Source: Emticicia sp. CRIBPO (GTDB lineage: Bacteria; Bacteroidota; Bacteroidia; Cytophagales; Spirosomataceae). From it: a stretch of DNA of 64,000 nt. Below are positions 10,490 through 21,123 of the stretch, one piece after another. Numbering within the stretch: the stretch's first letter is position 1; each line of letters opens with the position of its first letter. Under the pieces are notes generated by a model. That model made no database searches, was not told where the DNA came from, and saw only the letters and a list, made by a program, of their open reading frames with translations. Location: positions 62,001 through 126,000 of the forward strand of contig NZ_JAAAKV010000006.1 in the NCBI RefSeq assembly GCF_009905725.1. The letters are read 5' to 3'. Made by a program: the position numbers and the translations under genes.

Positions 10490-11461
10490 TCAATACACAA
10501 TACGGGCTGCCTCACGGGTTTTGTCGAGCAGGTGAATCAGCTTCAGGCTCATGGCAAGCGGCATCAGTTCACTCTCCATCTGCCCGTTTCTGAGGCATTT
10601 ATTGACCTCCTCAATTTCATAATTATACCCGAAAGTCTCTCTTTCAAACGAGAAATCCTGAGGCTCCTGGCCGGTGATGTTCAGGGTCAGTTTTTTACTT
10701 TCATGAAACCTGGAATGCAGGTGAATAGACCCTTCAGTACCATAAATAAAGGCCTCGGTGTTGGTTTCTGCACCAAAACTACAGTTCAGAACCGCCGTGG
10801 CTTCATTGTCATACTGATAGATAAAAGAGGTGGTTTCATCCACGCCCGTCGGCCCGAAAATGCTCAAAGCCTCTATTTTAGAAGGATAACCCAAAGTAAG
10901 CAACGATAGAAAAGCAGGATAAATACCGATATCGAGGAAAGCTCCGCCACCCAGTTTCGGGTTCAGGGTTCTTCTTTCCGGTAAAAACGGGGCCACAAAT
11001 CCAAAGTCGGCATGGATGGTCTTGATCTTACCGATGGTATCGGCCGCCAGCAACTCCATCATTTTCAAAGTTGAAGGTAAAAACCTCGTCCACATGGCTT
11101 CCATCAGGAATATCTTTTTCTCACGGGCCAGGTTAACCATGTTAGTCACCTCTTTTTCATTCATGGCAAAAGGCTTTTCACAAAGCACTGCCACGCCATG
11201 TTCAAGGCACAATTGGGTACACGACTCATGTAAGGTATGCGGAGTGGCAATGTACACCACGTCGACCTCTGACTTAAAAAGATCTTCATAACAGCCATAG
11301 GCATGGTCTGCCTTGTGCCTGATAGCAAAATCCTGTGCCCGCTCCAGTGAATTGGAAGCGACAGCCTCCAGTTTACAATTAGCTGCAAAACTTAAATCAT
11401 AAGCAAATTTCTCCGCGATTTTGCCTATTCCGATTATCCCCCATTTGATTTGTTGATCCAT
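10490..11461 (-). CDS. Gfo/Idh/MocA family oxidoreductase
   Basis: A 323-residue cytoplasmic NAD(P)-dependent dehydrogenase. The Rossmann motif GIIGIGKIAEKF is at residues 9-20, the family's EKPFA with the conserved Lys is at about 94-98, and the C-terminal alpha/beta dimerisation domain follows. The HADFGF and GGGAFLDIGIYP stretches are typical of the dihydrodiol/glucose-fructose-type subgroup that oxidises sugar or inositol-like substrates. The substrate cannot be named. It stands alone, with no sugar genes next to it, divergent from the phosphotriesterase-like gene. It shows no signal peptide, unlike the second Gfo/Idh gene at 34695. Confidence 0.9.
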   Translation of the reverse strand: MDQQIKWGIIGIGKIAEKFAYDLSFAANCKLEAVASNSLERAQDFAIRHKADHAYGCYEDLFKSEVDVVYIATPHTLHESCTQLCLEHGVAVLCEKPFAMNEKEVTNMVNLAREKKIFLMEAMWTRFLPSTLKMMELLAADTIGKIKTIHADFGFVAPFLPERRTLNPKLGGGAFLDIGIYPAFLSLLTLGYPSKIEALSIFGPTGVDETTSFIYQYDNEATAVLNCSFGAETNTEAFIYGTEGSIHLHSRFHESKKLTLNITGQEPQDFSFERETFGYNYEIEEVNKCLRNGQMESELMPLAMSLKLIHLLDKTREAARIVY

Positions 11462-11508
11462 AACTCAAATAAAACAGATCAGAAGGACATTGTCAACAGT
11501 TTTAAAAA

Positions 11509-11566
11509 AAAGGATGGAAGGAAGGATAAAAAGCGGAGGAAAGGAAGACGGAAAATGGAAGGGGGC
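11509..11566. repeat. Purine-rich intergenic tract
   Basis: Between the divergent oxidoreductase and phosphotriesterase genes the plus strand is purine-rich (GGATGGAAGGAAGGATAAAA and on). It resembles the tract at 7348-7410. No coding potential is seen. Confidence 0.45.
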
Positions 11567-11717
11567 ATGATGATTAGCATGCCTTCCGGGGAATCAGGCA
11601 TTTTTAAAAACTTTAGATTTTGAACGTCTCTACCCTGGAAACCTTTTTCCATCGGCCTTTACATCCACCTTTCAGCAAATTTCAGTAAATTTATACTCCT
11701 GACTTAAATCAGAAACC

Positions 11718-12716
11718 ATGAGTATCACAAGACGATCATTTTTATTAACGGCATTACTTGGTTTTGTCTCCAAAAAGCCGGCTATTATGACCATTAAGGG
11801 TCCGATTGACCCCTCCAGGCTCGGTATGAGCCTCATTCATGAGCATTTCCTGGTGGATTTTATAGGAGCGGACAAGATCGGTACCAGTAACTGGAACTTA
11901 GATGAAGTAACAGAGAAAGTCATGCCTTACCTGGCAGAAATAAAAAAACTGGGTGTAAAATCAGTATTTGAATGCACACCTGATTTCCTGGGCCGGGACA
12001 TTGCATTACTGAAAATCCTGGCACAAAAAAGTGGTCTGAACATCGTCACCAACACGGGTTACTACGGGGCCGTCAATAATAAATACCTGCCGAAATGGGC
12101 TTTTACATATACTGCCGAACAACTGGCAGACCGCTGGATCAGGGAATTTGAAGAAGGTATTGATTCCTCAAATGTGCGTCCGGGGTTCATCAAAACCGGT
12201 GTTGACGCCGGAAAAACCCTGTCCGGCCTGCACCGGAAACTTCTGCAGGCAGCGGCCCTCACACATCTCAAAACAGGTCTGACGATTTGCTCGCATACCG
12301 GCCTGGCCTCTGCAGCCTTTGAAGAAATTGAAATTCTGCAAAGCATGGGCGTTCACCCTCAGGCCTTTGTGTGGGTACATGCCCAGGGCGAAAACAACAA
12401 GGCATTACATACCAAAGCCGCCAGAATGGGTACCTGGGTGAGCCTGGACGGCATAGGCTGGGGAGGTTTTGAAAATTATGCCGACTCCATCGACCTGATG
12501 AAAGCCAATGGTGTACTCAACAGACTCCTGATTTCGCACGATGCCGGATGGTACAAACCTGGTGAACCCAACGGGGGTGATTTTAAAGGATACACCAACA
12601 TATTTAAAGAACTGATGCCGCTGCTCAAAAAGAGAGGGTTTACAGAAACAGATTTTGAGCAGATTCTGGTGAAAAATCCTGCTGAAGCCTTTACCGTAAG
12701 GGTCAGGGCTGCTTAG
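11718..12716 (+). CDS. Phosphotriesterase-family metal hydrolase
   Basis: A 332-residue amidohydrolase-superfamily TIM barrel. The binuclear metal set is complete: HEH at 41-43, Lys159 in GFIKTG as the carbamylated bridge, His193 in CSHTG, His221 in VHAQ and Asp275 in SHDAG. The N-terminus MSITRRSFLLTALLGF resembles a Tat signal (RRSFL), but the cleavage region is short and no AxA site is clear, so export is uncertain. Natural substrates of this family are often lactones or phosphoesters; the true one cannot be told. The gene is single, with plus-strand glyA 290 bp downstream. Confidence 0.88.
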   Translation: MSITRRSFLLTALLGFVSKKPAIMTIKGPIDPSRLGMSLIHEHFLVDFIGADKIGTSNWNLDEVTEKVMPYLAEIKKLGVKSVFECTPDFLGRDIALLKILAQKSGLNIVTNTGYYGAVNNKYLPKWAFTYTAEQLADRWIREFEEGIDSSNVRPGFIKTGVDAGKTLSGLHRKLLQAAALTHLKTGLTICSHTGLASAAFEEIEILQSMGVHPQAFVWVHAQGENNKALHTKAARMGTWVSLDGIGWGGFENYADSIDLMKANGVLNRLLISHDAGWYKPGEPNGGDFKGYTNIFKELMPLLKKRGFTETDFEQILVKNPAEAFTVRVRAA

Positions 12717-17094: not shown

Positions 17095-17840
17095 TATATT
17101 TTGTTTAGCCCTGGGGCAGTTATTATCCGTTTATAAAAAAGTGATTAAAGATATTTTCACATATACCCCTTCCTGAATGCCTGGCGGTATCAGCCACACA
17201 CACCCGGATCTTGGTACTGCTCTGTAATCCGGGTCAGGCCAAAGCCATCCGGCCTTTTACGAAGCAATAGCAAACAGGTTGTTACATGAAAATTACCCGG
17301 TCTGCGGGAGACCGGTGAAGCAGGCTGAATGGTTACGGGAATCTGTCCTCACAAAAGGGCATTTAAACGCCCGGTTGCCCTGATCAGGAAATGAAGACCA
17401 GGTTATGTCAAACCATGTTCGCAGACAGGTGGAGACTTGAGTGAATGGGCCATATCCGGAAAAGCCAGGCCTTTCCGGATATGGCAGAAGAGCAATGGTG
17501 TTTTTTTCATTTTTACTTTTATGTTTTTTTTATATTCTGTCGTGGCTTGTTTATTATTGAGACGGGATAAATGACGGAAGTCACTAAAAAAGAACAGTTG
17601 CCTGATTATAAGCACTTGACAATGTGACAATTGATTGATTTACAGTGAAATTTATCCGGCATGTCCTGGTTAAATGTCATCATGGTATTCAGAACTAAAT
17701 AATAAATTCCGGGGATATTTCATGGCCGGATACGTATATTACAGTCAAATAGAAACACAGCCCTCCCCGGTTTAAGACCTTACGGAATCAGACAGATATG
17801 CCATTGTTTTCCAAAAAAAAGCTTTAGATTTACATCAGAA
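17095..17840. other. Gene-free region with perfect inverted repeat
   Basis: No convincing gene is found in these 746 bp between the divergent T9SS gene and the TPP operon. A 13-bp perfect inverted repeat, CCATATCCGGAAA (17450-17462) and TTTCCGGATATGG (17472-17484), closes a 9-nt loop. A smaller 7-bp hairpin, CCGGTCT/AGACCGG, lies at 17297-17315. Neither is followed by a T-run. The promoter of the thiamin operon must lie in the right-hand part. Confidence 0.5.
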
Positions 17841-17927
17841 TTGCACGGGGTGCTTTTGACCAATGGGTCCAAAGGCTGAGATGATACCCGCGAACCTGAT
17901 ACGGATAATACCGGCGAAGGAATGCAC
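17841..17927 (+). promoter_or_regulatory. TPP riboswitch (THI element)
   Basis: The conserved core is unmistakable: GGGGTGC at 17847-17853, GGCTGAGATGATACCCG at 17874-17890, and GAACCTGATACGGATAATAC, then CGGCGAAGGAA, to 17922. The P1 stem closes with TGCA (17842-17845) and TGCA (17923-17926). This aptamer binds thiamin diphosphate and represses genes of thiamin synthesis or uptake. A terminator follows at 17961, and four genes start at 18028. Confidence 0.97.
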
Positions 17928-17960
17928 TGCCAGAGAATCTTCATTTTTTATGAATATCAG

Positions 17961-18008
17961 GCCTTGTTTTCTCTACCCGGTTTTCCGGCAGAGCAACAAG
18001 GCTTTTTT
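17961..18008 (+). terminator. Riboswitch-controlled terminator
   Basis: GCCTTGTT (17961-17968) pairs with AACAAGGC (17995-18002). The inner parts CTCT/AGAG and CCGG/CCGG extend the stem, and TTTTTT follows at 18003-18008, 19 nt before the first start codon. This is the expected expression platform: bound TPP should favour termination. Confidence 0.9.
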
Positions 18009-18027
18009 ATTTGTAAAATTTGAAATT

Positions 18028-18744
18028 ATGGAACTTCAGAAAAACAATTTCGGACTGATGACCAAAGACCTTACCAACTGGCAGGGTCGCAAGGAATGGT
18101 TCTTTAACCGCGAGCATACCGACACGTACGAGCTCTGGTATGAGGGCCGCTACAAAAGAGCCGAAGTATGGCAGAAAAAAGTAATGGGGCAATTGGTCGG
18201 CCAGGACAAGCGGGTAAAAGAACTTCTTGAGTTTGGCTGCGGTACCGGGCGTTTTACCCGCTGGTGGCATGAAATCGGCATTGAAGCCACAGGTGGGGAC
18301 ATTTCTCCTTTTATGCTGGGGCAGGCTGTTCATTTGTTTAAAGGTGACCTCGTCAATGCAGACTCTCATCACATGCCTTTTAAAGACAACACCTTTGATG
18401 CCGTAGCTTTCATCACCACTTTTGAGTACTACAAAGATCCGGTCAAGGTGATCAGGGAAGCCGCCAGGGTGGGTCGTCACGGCATAGGATTCGGGATGAT
18501 GAACCGCAACTCACCCAAGGTGGTCAGGAGGCGGATCCAGGAAGCATTCGGCAAAAACCCTTTTTACGTAACAGCCACTTTTTATACCCCTTCCTTGCTC
18601 ATCGAAAAGATCAATGAAGCCCTGGCAGGAAGGCAATACAGCATTGAATGGTCGTGTACAGGATTGCCGGAGTGGTTCCCGGTGCAGCAATGGAGCGTGC
18701 CTTATGGCGATTTCTTTGGTCTTTATGTCAGGTTTAATGATTAA
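18028..18744 (+). CDS. Class I SAM methyltransferase of the TPP-regulated operon
   Basis: A 238-residue cytoplasmic methyltransferase. Motif I reads LLEFGCGTGRF (about 68-78), followed by the acidic GGDIS after strand 2, the DSHHMPFKDNTFDAVAF stretch with motif IV, and a C-terminal substrate part with WFPVQQW. It belongs to the UbiE/BioC-like Methyltransf_11 group, which does not reveal the substrate. ATG 18028 is taken as the start because longer frames run into the riboswitch. The gene is first in a four-gene unit behind the TPP riboswitch and is 3 nt from the next. The fourth gene encodes a Trm112-like zinc protein; Trm112 proteins activate methyltransferases, so the two may work together. 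A role in thiamin-related chemistry is inferred only from control and neighbours. Confidence 0.88.
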   Translation: MELQKNNFGLMTKDLTNWQGRKEWFFNREHTDTYELWYEGRYKRAEVWQKKVMGQLVGQDKRVKELLEFGCGTGRFTRWWHEIGIEATGGDISPFMLGQAVHLFKGDLVNADSHHMPFKDNTFDAVAFITTFEYYKDPVKVIREAARVGRHGIGFGMMNRNSPKVVRRRIQEAFGKNPFYVTATFYTPSLLIEKINEALAGRQYSIEWSCTGLPEWFPVQQWSVPYGDFFGLYVRFND

Positions 18745-18747
18745 AAC

Positions 18748-19788
18748 ATGGCACTTTCAGGAAAAATAGAGAATACAGATTTTGACAGGATCATCCGCCC
18801 GCAATGCGGATTTAAGCGTCCGGAAGTACTCACCGGGCCTGCTTTCGGGACGGACGTGTCGGTGGTTGATCTGAAAAACGGCCTGGGGCTGGCCATGACC
18901 AGTGACCCGCTGTCGCTCATTCCATCTCTCGGTCTGCAGGAATCAGCCTGGTTGTCGGTTCATTTAATGGCCAATGATATGGCTACCACGGGTTTTGCCC
19001 CGATGTATGCCCAGACGGTCCTTAACCTGCCACCATGGCTGAGTGAAGAAGATTTTGTGACCTACTGGGGTTTTATACATCAATATTGTGAAGAAATCGG
19101 CGTGGCCATTACAGGAGGACATACCGGGGGTATTGAGGGACAGAATTCTACCATTGCAGGTGGAGGCACTATGATCCTGACAGCCCCGCTTGACCAGATC
19201 CGGCTGAGCAACAAAGCCAGGAGCGGAGATGTGATCATACTCACCAAAGAAGCCGCCCTTTCTTCTGCGGCCATCCTGGCCATGAGTTTTCCGGAAACGG
19301 TCACGGATCAGCTCGGTAAAGAAATCTCCGAAAAAGGTGCCGGCTTGTTTTATAAGACCTCCTCGCTGAATGACGGCCTGATTGCGGCCCGCCACGCTTC
19401 GGTGTCTGCCATGCATGATGTAACGGAAGGCGGGGTTCTGGGGGCAATATATGAGATGGCGATTTCTTCAGGGAACGGCGTAAGGGTTGACAAAGACCTC
19501 TTGCCCGTCGGTGAAACACAGAAGGCCATCTGTCGCTTATTCGGACTTGATCCGGGATATTGCATCGGGGCGGGCTCCATGGTGATTGCTGCCCGGAAAG
19601 AGGGTGCCGGGGAGGTCATAGAAGACCTGAACAAAAACGGCATCCAGGCCACCATAGCCGGAGCTTTTACGGCAAAGCAAGACGGGTACACCCTGATCGA
19701 AAACGGGCAGGAAAAACCTTTACCCTATTATCACAAAGACCCTTACTGGGAAGCCTTTTTTAAAGCATATCAAAACGGATGGAAATAA
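18748..19788 (+). CDS. AIR synthase-related protein (PurM/HypE/ThiL fold)
   Basis: A 346-residue protein of the PurM superfamily, which includes ThiL, HypE, SelD and PurM and binds ATP across a dimer. The N-terminal domain has FGTDVSVVD, TSDPLS and the conserved ANDMATTGFAPMYAQTVL stretch; the GGHTGG motif at about 128-133 precedes the C-terminal domain, which has MHDVTEGGVLGAIYEMA typical of HypE and SelD. The usual GDDAAV of ThiL is altered to GTDVSV. Under a TPP riboswitch and next to a ThiE-like gene, the natural guess is a thiamin monophosphate kinase-like step, but the sequence looks closer to HypE than to classic ThiL. It overlaps the next gene by 10 nt. Confidence 0.85.
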   Translation: MALSGKIENTDFDRIIRPQCGFKRPEVLTGPAFGTDVSVVDLKNGLGLAMTSDPLSLIPSLGLQESAWLSVHLMANDMATTGFAPMYAQTVLNLPPWLSEEDFVTYWGFIHQYCEEIGVAITGGHTGGIEGQNSTIAGGGTMILTAPLDQIRLSNKARSGDVIILTKEAALSSAAILAMSFPETVTDQLGKEISEKGAGLFYKTSSLNDGLIAARHASVSAMHDVTEGGVLGAIYEMAISSGNGVRVDKDLLPVGETQKAICRLFGLDPGYCIGAGSMVIAARKEGAGEVIEDLNKNGIQATIAGAFTAKQDGYTLIENGQEKPLPYYHKDPYWEAFFKAYQNGWK

Positions 19789-20420
19789 AAAAATCAGCTA
19801 TAAAAGGAGGCGTTTACCTCGTCATTGACCCTTCTTCAGAGCTCATCACCCTAAAAACAAAGTTACTGGCGGCCCTGGAAAGCGGGGTGGCTGTGATCCA
19901 GATCTGGAATCACTGGCAGGCGGGGCAAAACAAAAAACAGACCATAGAAGAGGTGGGCAAGCTTGCTTCACCGTTCGGAGTGCCTGTACTGATCAATGAA
20001 GACTGGAAACTGATGCAGGATTGTCCTGTACTGGATGGGGTGCATTTTGACCAGGTTCCGGCAAACATGGATGAAATCAGTGCCAGCTTCAAAAAGCCTT
20101 TCTTTTGCGGCATAACCTGCTCCAACGACCTGAGTACCGTGATGTGGGCCGTCGAAAACAAGCTGGATTATGTCTCATTCTGTTCTATGTTTCCCTCTTC
20201 ATCAGCCGGTAGCTGTGAGATCGTCATGCCTGAAAATGTGATCAGAACCAAAGAAATCACGGACATTCCGGTATTTGTGGCGGGGGGGCTTACGCCTGAA
20301 AACGTCGCTGCATTAAAAGAAAATATACCTTTCGACGGCATCGCTGTGATTTCGGGAGTCATGAGCAGCGATAAGCCGGGAGAAAAAGTAACAGCATATT
20401 TAAACGCATTAAAAAAATGA
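19779..20420 (+). CDS. Divergent ThiE-like (thiamine phosphate synthase family) protein
   Basis: A 213-residue TIM-barrel protein. Recognisable elements in order are GVAVIQIW, the LINEDW strand, LDGVHFDQ, CGITCSNDL, LDYVSFCSMFPS, IPVFVAGGLTPENV and FDGIAVISGVM, all in the order of ThiE. Normal ThiE joins HMP diphosphate and thiazole phosphate to thiamin monophosphate. Two of its signatures are changed: the QxREK strand with the catalytic Arg reads QIWNHW, and the GPxFxTxTK loop reads CSMFPSSSAG without the Thr-Lys. Activity on the usual substrates is therefore doubtful. It overlaps the genes on both sides (10 nt and 4 nt), so translation is coupled within the TPP-controlled operon. Confidence 0.85.
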   Translation: MEIKKSAIKGGVYLVIDPSSELITLKTKLLAALESGVAVIQIWNHWQAGQNKKQTIEEVGKLASPFGVPVLINEDWKLMQDCPVLDGVHFDQVPANMDEISASFKKPFFCGITCSNDLSTVMWAVENKLDYVSFCSMFPSSSAGSCEIVMPENVIRTKEITDIPVFVAGGLTPENVAALKENIPFDGIAVISGVMSSDKPGEKVTAYLNALKK

Positions 20421-20677
20421 GATTAAAAACGATTAAAAAACTTTGTTGTCCGCTGGATAAACAAGACCTCACTTTACAAATCATTGCCCAGGATCTGGAT
20501 GAGAACATTCTTGAAGGGATGCTCACCTGCAGCCAGTGTCAGCGTAAATACCCGATCATCCATGGTGTGCCCATCATGTCGCCGGATGAGTATCGTCAGA
20601 CGGCACTTGAGCAACCGGTGATTGACCGCTGGGAGAATGCCCTTTCAAATGCCCAGACCCATTTATTGAATCACTGA
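20417..20677 (+). CDS. Trm112-like zinc-ribbon protein
   Basis: An 86-residue protein. CCPLDKQDL near the start (Cys10-Cys11) and LTCSQCQRKYPI (Cys38, Cys41) form a zinc ribbon, followed by HGVPIMSPDEYR, the YPI...GIPxLxP ending of Trm112/YcaR proteins. In eukaryotes and archaea Trm112 is a small partner that stabilises several SAM methyltransferases. The ATGA overlap with the ThiE-like gene makes it the last gene of the TPP-regulated operon, whose first gene is a methyltransferase; the two are likely partners. The C-terminal 20 residues (VIDRWENALSNAQ) are a helix outside the normal domain. It converges on the Nudix gene with a 5-nt gap. Confidence 0.85.
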   Translation: MRLKTIKKLCCPLDKQDLTLQIIAQDLDENILEGMLTCSQCQRKYPIIHGVPIMSPDEYRQTALEQPVIDRWENALSNAQTHLLNH

Positions 20678-20682
20678 AGGGT

Positions 20683-21123
20683 TTAACGCATGAAAATTTC
20701 GCCGCCTGTACTCATGGCGTCGCTGAGCCAGAAGGGGTTAATGGTGGCGAGGTTTTCGGGAATATGATCAAGGGGAAAGAACTTCAGTTCTTCTGTTTCT
20801 TCATTATGATAACCTGCTATCAGCGGGGCAGTTAAACGGGCTTCAAAATAAGAAGTGATGTATTGGACTGTCCTGTCTTTATAGTGATAAGTCTGGGATG
20901 CAGGGGAAGAATAAACACCCAGAAACCTGATGATTTCTCCGCTTACGCTGGTTTCTTCCCAGATTTCACGCAATACAGCCTCCTGAACAGATTCTCCGAA
21001 TTCAACGTGTCCTGAGATGATGCACCACTGATTCACATCACGGCGTTTCTGGAGTAATACCTCTCCTTTGTCATTGAATATCGCAACGGCAACAGCCGGA
21101 AGAATCTGTTCAGAGGCCTGCAT
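20683..21123 (-). CDS. Nudix hydrolase
   Basis: A 146-residue pyrophosphohydrolase. The Nudix box spans residues 38-60 as GHVEFGESVQEAVLREIWEE then TSV; the catalytic REIWEE is intact, and the Gly that usually follows EET/EEx is Ser59. The N-terminal part (ILPAVAVAIFNDKGEVLLQKR) is the standard first strand set. It resembles the ADP-ribose or (deoxy)nucleotide class but lacks a feature that fixes the substrate. It starts 2 nt after the lipoprotein gene on the same strand and converges on the thiamin operon. Confidence 0.9.
   Translation of the reverse strand: MQASEQILPAVAVAIFNDKGEVLLQKRRDVNQWCIISGHVEFGESVQEAVLREIWEETSVSGEIIRFLGVYSSPASQTYHYKDRTVQYITSYFEARLTAPLIAGYHNEETEELKFFPLDHIPENLATINPFWLSDAMSTGGEIFMR

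Follow-up and report, generated by a model that had tools for sequence, protein, structure and literature searches.

A 64,000-nucleotide (nt) window of Emticicia sp. CRIBPO (contig NZ_JAAAKV010000006.1 of RefSeq assembly GCF_009905725.1, positions 62,001 to 126,000 of the forward strand) was analysed, and contains a four-gene operon led by a thiamin pyrophosphate (TPP) riboswitch. The operon encodes a methyltransferase (MTase), an AIRS/PurM-superfamily protein, a relative of ThiE and a small Trm112-like protein. It is proposed, with a probability of roughly 0.6, that these genes form a TPP-repressed module for thiamin salvage or supply, replacing ThiE-based salvage in genomes that are seemingly unable to make thiamin. 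Such a role is well supported, because the genes follow a TPP riboswitch, because the module and canonical ThiE exclude one another in the genomes compared, and because the third protein is of ThiE ancestry.

A four-gene operon behind a TPP riboswitch

The features of the locus, in window coordinates, are as follows.

17836-17939, + strand: TPP riboswitch (THI element, RF00059); 61.5 bits, E 1.2e-9, gathering score 54.3
17960-18008, + strand: intrinsic terminator hairpin and T-run, probable expression platform; hairpin -22.2 kcal/mol
18028-18744, + strand: class I S-adenosylmethionine (SAM)-dependent MTase, 238 amino acids; Methyltransf_11, 1.7e-19
18748-19788, + strand: AIRS/PurM-superfamily protein, HypE-like but neither HypE nor ThiL, 346 amino acids; AIRS_C, 2.8e-21
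19779-20420, + strand: ThiE-like protein, 213 amino acids; TMP-TENI, 1.7e-25
20417-20677, + strand: Trm112-like zinc-ribbon protein, probable MTase activator, 86 amino acids; Trm112p, 3.6e-8

The riboswitch is the sole match to RF00059 at the gathering score across the window. Downstream of it lies a hairpin that starts at 17960 and ends in a T-run (18003-18008), with 19 nt from there to the ATG at 18028. The leader between 17925 and 18027 folds with a z-score of -6.26, and none of 200 shuffled sequences was equally stable. A simple terminator scan of the window missed this hairpin, probably because the scan permits loops of 3-8 bases only; four other terminators were listed, against 3.9 expected. 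The MTase and AIRS genes are separated by 3 nt, the AIRS and ThiE-like genes overlap by 10 nt, and the ThiE-like and Trm112-like genes overlap by 4 nt. These data agree with a preliminary description of the locus, made from the DNA letters alone, which had reported a clear THI element, a terminator 19 nt ahead of the first start codon and four tightly packed genes with the same gap and overlaps. A mechanical open reading frame would start the MTase at 17863; this start was rejected, as it falls inside the aptamer and the orthologues fit 18028.

The module recurs in 33 genomes with an invariant gene order

Using a profile of the MTase, orthologues were found in 22 of 222 genomes of the window's family (9 of 36 genera), and a set of 395 genomes drawn from the phylum Bacteroidota gave 13 matches, 11 of them new. 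This brings the total to 33 distinct carriers in 16 genera, nine within the family and seven outside it, from the window's class and at least one other. The preliminary description had pointed to the four-gene order, and to its co-occurrence with thiE and thiL, as informative; order and strand (MTase, AIRS, ThiE-like, Trm112-like) proved identical in all 33 carriers. The recurrence of this architecture rules out the operon being a local accident. The genes are closely spaced in most carriers; in some copies from family f42 the last gene is preceded by a gap of as much as 528 nt. Every operon has a TPP riboswitch ahead of it, at a distance of 42-195 nt from the MTase start chosen, and 32 of the 33 riboswitches score above the Rfam gathering threshold; the exception (genome G311, locus L116) scores 47.8 bits. 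The module was found in none of the nine other listed genomes of the genus Emticicia.

As judged from their sequences, the four proteins have a common history, because their pairwise distances across the 33 orthologues correlate (Mantel r 0.75-0.87; permutation maxima 0.17-0.26). The MTase is the most conserved of the four (63-100% identity) and the ThiE-like protein the least (30-95%). The leader terminator is not a general feature of the operon. A comparable hairpin and T-run is seen in 17 of the 33 leaders, all of them in the window's family, and is weak or lacking in 13, namely all 11 outside the family together with L020 and L053 inside it; for L054, L056 and L057, from one genus, the chosen start probably cut the stretch scanned for a terminator. 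Coverage of other phyla consisted of one weak genome-contig scan and a plasmid collection. The contig scan with the ThiE-like protein gave a single weak match (23%), and in the plasmid collection the same query returned eight records at 24-26% identity, while the MTase query returned 21 records, none reaching 80% coverage.

The active site of the ThiE-like protein has been rebuilt

The ThiE-like protein belongs to the TMP-TENI family (PF02581, 89.9 bits against a gathering score of 27) and falls below the cut-offs for both ThiE (TIGR00693, 80.4 against 145.1 bits) and TenI (PRK07695, 40.2 against 251 bits). The 33 operon copies were aligned with 10 canonical ThiE proteins of the same family, with Bacillus subtilis residue numbers counted from the alignment. 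Loss of the QxREK and TxTK signatures, already remarked on in the preliminary description, extends to every orthologue: the QxREK Arg (R59, now Trp) and Lys (K61, mostly Asn or His), the D112 equivalent and the TxTK Lys (K159, deleted) are gone from all 33 copies, whereas the Arg, both Lys and the D112 equivalent are present in all 10 canonical proteins. D93, the Asp that follows N92, remains in five copies. Equivalents of Q57, N92, H107 and S206 are kept in all 33, with Ser130 replaced by Thr throughout and Thr156 by Ser in 31 copies and kept as Thr in two. By structural work on B. subtilis ThiE, the lost residues hold the pyrophosphate of hydroxymethylpyrimidine pyrophosphate (HMP-PP) and Mg, and the kept ones face the pyrimidine and the thiazole phosphate.

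In addition, residues have appeared that are invariant in all 33 copies (Trp43, Asn116, Ser133, Cys135, Pro139, Cys146 and Val149, with Asp91 in 32), including the two gained Cys, and these new invariants speak against simple decay of the protein. TenI, the thiazole tautomerase, is likewise a ThiE relative without the pyrophosphate residues; the two proteins labelled TenI-like in this data set (L128 and L139), in contrast to the operon copies, have no equivalent of Trp43, Cys135 or Cys146. A single-sequence AlphaFold2 model of the ThiE-like protein had a mean pLDDT (predicted local distance difference test) of 40 and was not used.

A separate ThiE-family protein without QxREK, which may be another rebuilt or decaying ThiE, is encoded by the non-carrier G272 (L149, 4852-5490, 110.7 bits). 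Given the absent motif it was not counted as canonical.

Carriers of the module lack canonical ThiE

In the Emticicia sp. CRIBPO genome the single ThiE-family match is the operon protein itself. The preliminary description had found no thiC in the operon, and this absence holds genome-wide, with no ThiC match in the whole genome (97.8% complete). A full thi set with normal ThiE and ThiL would have argued against its reading; what the genome holds is a canonical ThiL together with TPK, and neither canonical ThiE nor ThiC was found. Two TPP riboswitches are present, the second before a TonB-dependent receptor.

The same picture extends to the other carriers. Canonical ThiE, defined as a match above 130 bits, was found in none of the 33 (0/22 in the family, 0/11 elsewhere in the phylum), ThiC was found in none of the 22 family carriers, which its search covered, and ThiL exceeds its cut-off in 32 of 33. 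Taken with the TPP control predicted from the riboswitch, this is the setting of a salvage module, in genomes where neither a ThiC nor a ThiE route was seen.

For comparison, 22 of the 200 non-carriers in the family and 32 from elsewhere in the order and class were examined, and canonical ThiE was found in 19 of these 54 (9/22 and 10/32, respectively). The difference from the carriers gives a Fisher P value of 3e-5, becoming 5e-4 (0/33 versus 14/49) without five non-carriers that had shown an earlier weak match, and 1e-3 when counted by genus (0/16 versus 18/40); these values are indicative, because the non-carriers were picked by convenience and the genomes are related. More telling are three genera in which both states occur, and in which the carriers are without canonical ThiE and the non-carrier has it: g1 (G000 versus G007), g27 (G156, G158 and G160 versus G035) and g64 (G516 versus G255).

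Other TPP-controlled loci in related genomes

TPP riboswitches in related genomes lead more familiar operons. In six non-carrier loci (L122-L127) the riboswitch precedes thiM-thiE-thiD-tenA, as checked with Pfam, and four others (L128, L129, L130 and L139) have it upstream of an operon that includes thiC and thiE; G010 has both types. The thiM-thiE-thiD-tenA operon resembles the module in having a TPP riboswitch, four genes and a ThiE-family protein, and ThiC is absent from five of its six genomes. It differs in that, in the module, the MTase, AIRS and Trm112-like proteins stand in place of ThiM, ThiD and TenA, and the ThiE active site is rebuilt.

A second TPP element is present in all 22 family carriers, below the gathering score in G156, G158 and G160, and leads a TonB-dependent receptor in each of the eight carrier loci read. 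This arrangement parallels OMthi of Bacteroides, as described in PMC5613172. In the genomes of the family that were examined, TPP thus seems to control an importer, accompanied either by ThiE-based salvage or synthesis, by the present operon, or by nothing further.

An APC-type transporter (AA_permease_2), a candidate inner-membrane thiamin transporter, lies near the TPP-led TonB receptor in four of the eight carrier loci read:

L021 (G000:C37), 10851-12188: APC transporter near TonB receptor
L132, 4274-5839: APC transporter near TonB receptor
L133, 3373-4887: APC transporter near TonB receptor
L134, 4547-5872: APC transporter near TonB receptor

In G174, a third TPP-riboswitch-like element (L135, 8178-8285, minus strand) scores 52.7 bits, just below the gathering score, and precedes by about 600 nt a gene whose matches to acyl-CoA dehydrogenase are weak and sub-threshold.

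The AIRS protein is not a ThiL substitute

The AIRS protein has the N- and C-terminal AIRS domains of HypE and ThiL. The preliminary description had placed it nearer to HypE than to ThiL, and the profile scores rank it in this way, at 78.4 bits for hypE (TIGR02124, cut-off 251.6) and about 50 bits (50.3 and 49.8) for thiL (TIGR01379, cut-off 184.15), both far below what membership requires. HypE ends in a modified Cys, whereas no Cys is found in the last 15 residues of the AIRS protein in any of the 33 operon copies. Where the ThiL of the same genome has S-D-G, the AIRS protein has a T-E-G-G motif, which is present in all 33 copies. Moreover, that ThiL is a separate, true ThiL encoded elsewhere (307.2 bits, TIGR01379), and the AIRS protein is therefore no substitute for it. 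The idea that it supplies a missing ThiL was rejected on the wider count also, as ThiL is above its cut-off in nearly all carriers and in all 13 non-carriers tested.

The closest resemblance seen for the AIRS protein, at 27-32% identity, is to members of the AIR synthase family from haloarchaea and from a cyanobacterium. Among the relatives listed, T-E-G-G is present in those of Haloarcula pelagica and Acaryochloris and absent in that of Halobacterium. Seven of the 91 matching plasmid records were inspected, the gene being unannotated in the Acetoanaerobium record. On the Haloarcula plasmids (L023, L142 and L143; 3/3) the AIR synthase family gene is divergent from genes for a thiamine-binding protein and a thiamine transporter substrate-binding protein; such neighbours were not seen beside the relatives in Acaryochloris, Haloferax or Halobacterium. 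These haloarchaeal relatives are taken as no more than a hint that the AIRS protein acts on thiamin, and were rejected as proof of it.

The MTase and the Trm112-like protein may form a holoenzyme

Comparison of the MTase profile with the Protein Data Bank (PDB) gave six sequences at 1e-5 or better, including an 18S rRNA guanine-N7 methyltransferase that is presumably the Trm112-dependent Bud23. The Trm112-like protein passes the gathering score of Pfam Trm112p (33.6 against 22 bits) and lies below the cut-off of NCBIfam Trm112_arch (61.3 against 77 bits). Its residues C10, C11, C38 and C41 are invariant in the 33 operon copies, and it matches two PDB entries, 6zxw_H (1.7e-10) and 6f5z_C, which we take to be archaeal Trm112 proteins solved with methyltransferases. 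On these sequence comparisons a partnership between the two proteins is plausible, because their genes are linked in all 33 operons, their distances correlate with r 0.84, and the Trm112-like protein has these two structural matches. The pair would resemble known Trm112-methyltransferase holoenzymes in combining a class I MTase with a small protein bearing conserved cysteines; it would differ in context, since the known holoenzymes act in translation and here the genes accompany a TPP riboswitch and a ThiE relative. According to a 2017 review, the partners established for Trm112 are modifiers of tRNA, rRNA or release factors, and what Trm112 does in bacteria was wholly unknown at that time (PMC5372719).

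A model for the module, and alternative explanations

A possible route can be sketched if the operon is indeed a salvage module. Under TPP scarcity, transcription would continue past the leader and all four proteins would be produced. With the Trm112-like protein as its activator, the MTase would methylate a salvaged pyrimidine compound and thereby turn a poor leaving group (a thioether or amine, for example in thiaminase I adducts) into a good one (a sulfonium or ammonium). According to PMC5627462, thiaminase I swaps the thiazole of thiamin for nucleophiles such as pyridine or thiols like cysteine. The thiazole alcohol might be phosphorylated by the AIRS protein with ATP, or activated in some equivalent way, a step that would otherwise fall to ThiM. 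The two halves would then be joined by the ThiE-like protein, perhaps aided by Cys135 and Cys146, in a pocket that would retain its contacts to pyrimidine and thiazole phosphate and lack those to HMP-pyrophosphate, and the thiamin phosphate formed would pass to ThiL. Read in the most economical way, function by function, the MTase-Trm112 pair would replace ThiD and TenA, the AIRS protein would replace ThiM and the ThiE-like protein ThiE, with ThiL retained for the last step. Two features agree with a leaving group that is activated through methylation at sulfur or nitrogen: ThiE has lost its pyrophosphate site, and a methyltransferase is encoded beside it. The individual chemical steps and substrates are nevertheless inferred, and this particular division of labour among the four proteins is held with low confidence. 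It is similarly doubtful that the module embodies a new bond-forming chemistry, with methylation by MTase-Trm112 in place of pyrophosphorylation, the AIRS protein in place of the thiazole kinase, and transfer by a rebuilt ThiE that bears cysteines.

A number of observations weigh against the salvage reading as a whole. We know of no methylation within thiamin salvage. Since the Emticicia genome has TPK, imported thiamin should be usable without the module. Canonical ThiE is also absent from 35 of the 54 non-carriers, the P values are subject to the sampling described above, and the absence of ThiC taken alone is not significant (0/22 versus 4/22, P 0.11). The class of canonical ThiE rests on the bit score, with QxREK read in 10 family proteins and in that of G255, and the nine others outside the family classed by score. 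Weak second TMP-TENI matches (21-28 bits), which span a portion of the profile, were seen in G026, in G031 and in all nine carriers of family f42. Three of these matches reach or exceed 27, the cut-off of the family; they are all assumed to be other TIM barrels. One carrier, G031, has no ThiL over the cut-off, in a genome that is 78% complete. ThiL was also found in 13/13 non-carriers tested, four of which (G001, G012, G021 and G025) have no ThiE-family match at all, so the presence of ThiL is no proof that thiamin phosphate is made; in these four it may serve imported thiamin phosphate or another role. Finally, the genome-wide searches of carriers covered ThiE and ThiL (33 genomes), ThiC and the second TPP element (the 22 of the family) and TPK (the Emticicia genome).

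Of the roles raised in the preliminary description, salvage or an alternative late route is supported by the absence of ThiC and canonical ThiE and by the thiM-thiE-thiD-tenA operons of six non-carriers, while repair of damaged thiamin and synthesis of an analogue are retained as rivals of low probability. In the case of repair, the AIRS protein would reclose or dehydrate a ring-opened or N-formyl form of thiamin in the fashion of PurM, the ThiE-like protein would hold the pyrimidine-thiazole phosphate and the MTase would trap or correct a side product. To our understanding, PurM-type AIRS enzymes activate formyl and amide oxygens with ATP and ring-opened thiamin carries an N-formyl group, and the ThiE-like residues presumed to contact both halves of thiamin phosphate look kept. 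Ring-opened thiamin, however, is understood to reclose unaided near neutral pH, and repair leaves both the methyl step and the absence of canonical ThiE from carriers unexplained; this explanation is unlikely. That absence also counts against a still less likely reading, in which the module makes a thiamin analogue or an antivitamin when thiamin is limiting. The model for analogue synthesis is bacimethrin, whose thiamin-linked operon likewise contains a SAM methyltransferase (PMC5627462). None of the other bacimethrin genes, including those for the deoxyribosyltransferase, the thymidylate-synthase-like protein and thiaminase I, was recognised within the module or next to it in the loci read, by eye and with no profile search made, and no recurring export or resistance gene was seen adjoining it.

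The Trm112 partners known from tRNA, rRNA and release factors (PMC5372719) lend some support to a set that modifies a protein, RNA or cofactor unrelated to thiamin, and that is switched by TPP since the modification is needed when TPP enzymes fail. This is improbable, given that the ThiE pocket residues are kept in all 33 ThiE-like copies and that the module again follows the absence of canonical ThiE. The least probable of the explanations considered is a de novo, or largely new, thiamin route of few enzymes. In its favour, ThiC is missing from all 22 carriers searched and canonical ThiE from all 33, yet 32 retain ThiL and all have a TPP-controlled operon that is not for transport; against it, no chemistry known to us would build both rings with only four genes, and the TPP-controlled TonB receptor kept in the 8/8 carrier loci read suggests that thiamin is taken up.

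Two further features lie near carrier operons. The convergent Nudix gene at 20683-21123 was rejected as an operon member, since no recurrence beside other operons was seen by eye. A group II intron D1-D4 match (L113, 593-774, minus strand, 115.6 bits) lies about 5 kb from the G559 operon.

Searches of the open-licence literature showed nothing on this gene set, and earlier mention in subscription journals or regulon databases is possible. In our view, the routes to vitamin B1 are usually taken to be nearly complete. If the proposed salvage chemistry is correct, it would be, to our knowledge, the first ThiE-fold synthesis of thiamin phosphate without HMP-PP and the first function for a bacterial Trm112; in any event, the module links a bacterial Trm112 protein to a partner gene, in a setting open to direct testing. 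A TPP-switched, methyltransferase-based operon, conserved in at least two classes of a phylum and seen only in genomes in which no canonical ThiE was found, would mean that vitamin B1 can be obtained by a route so far unrecognised, and such a route would alter predictions of which environmental bacteria need thiamin.

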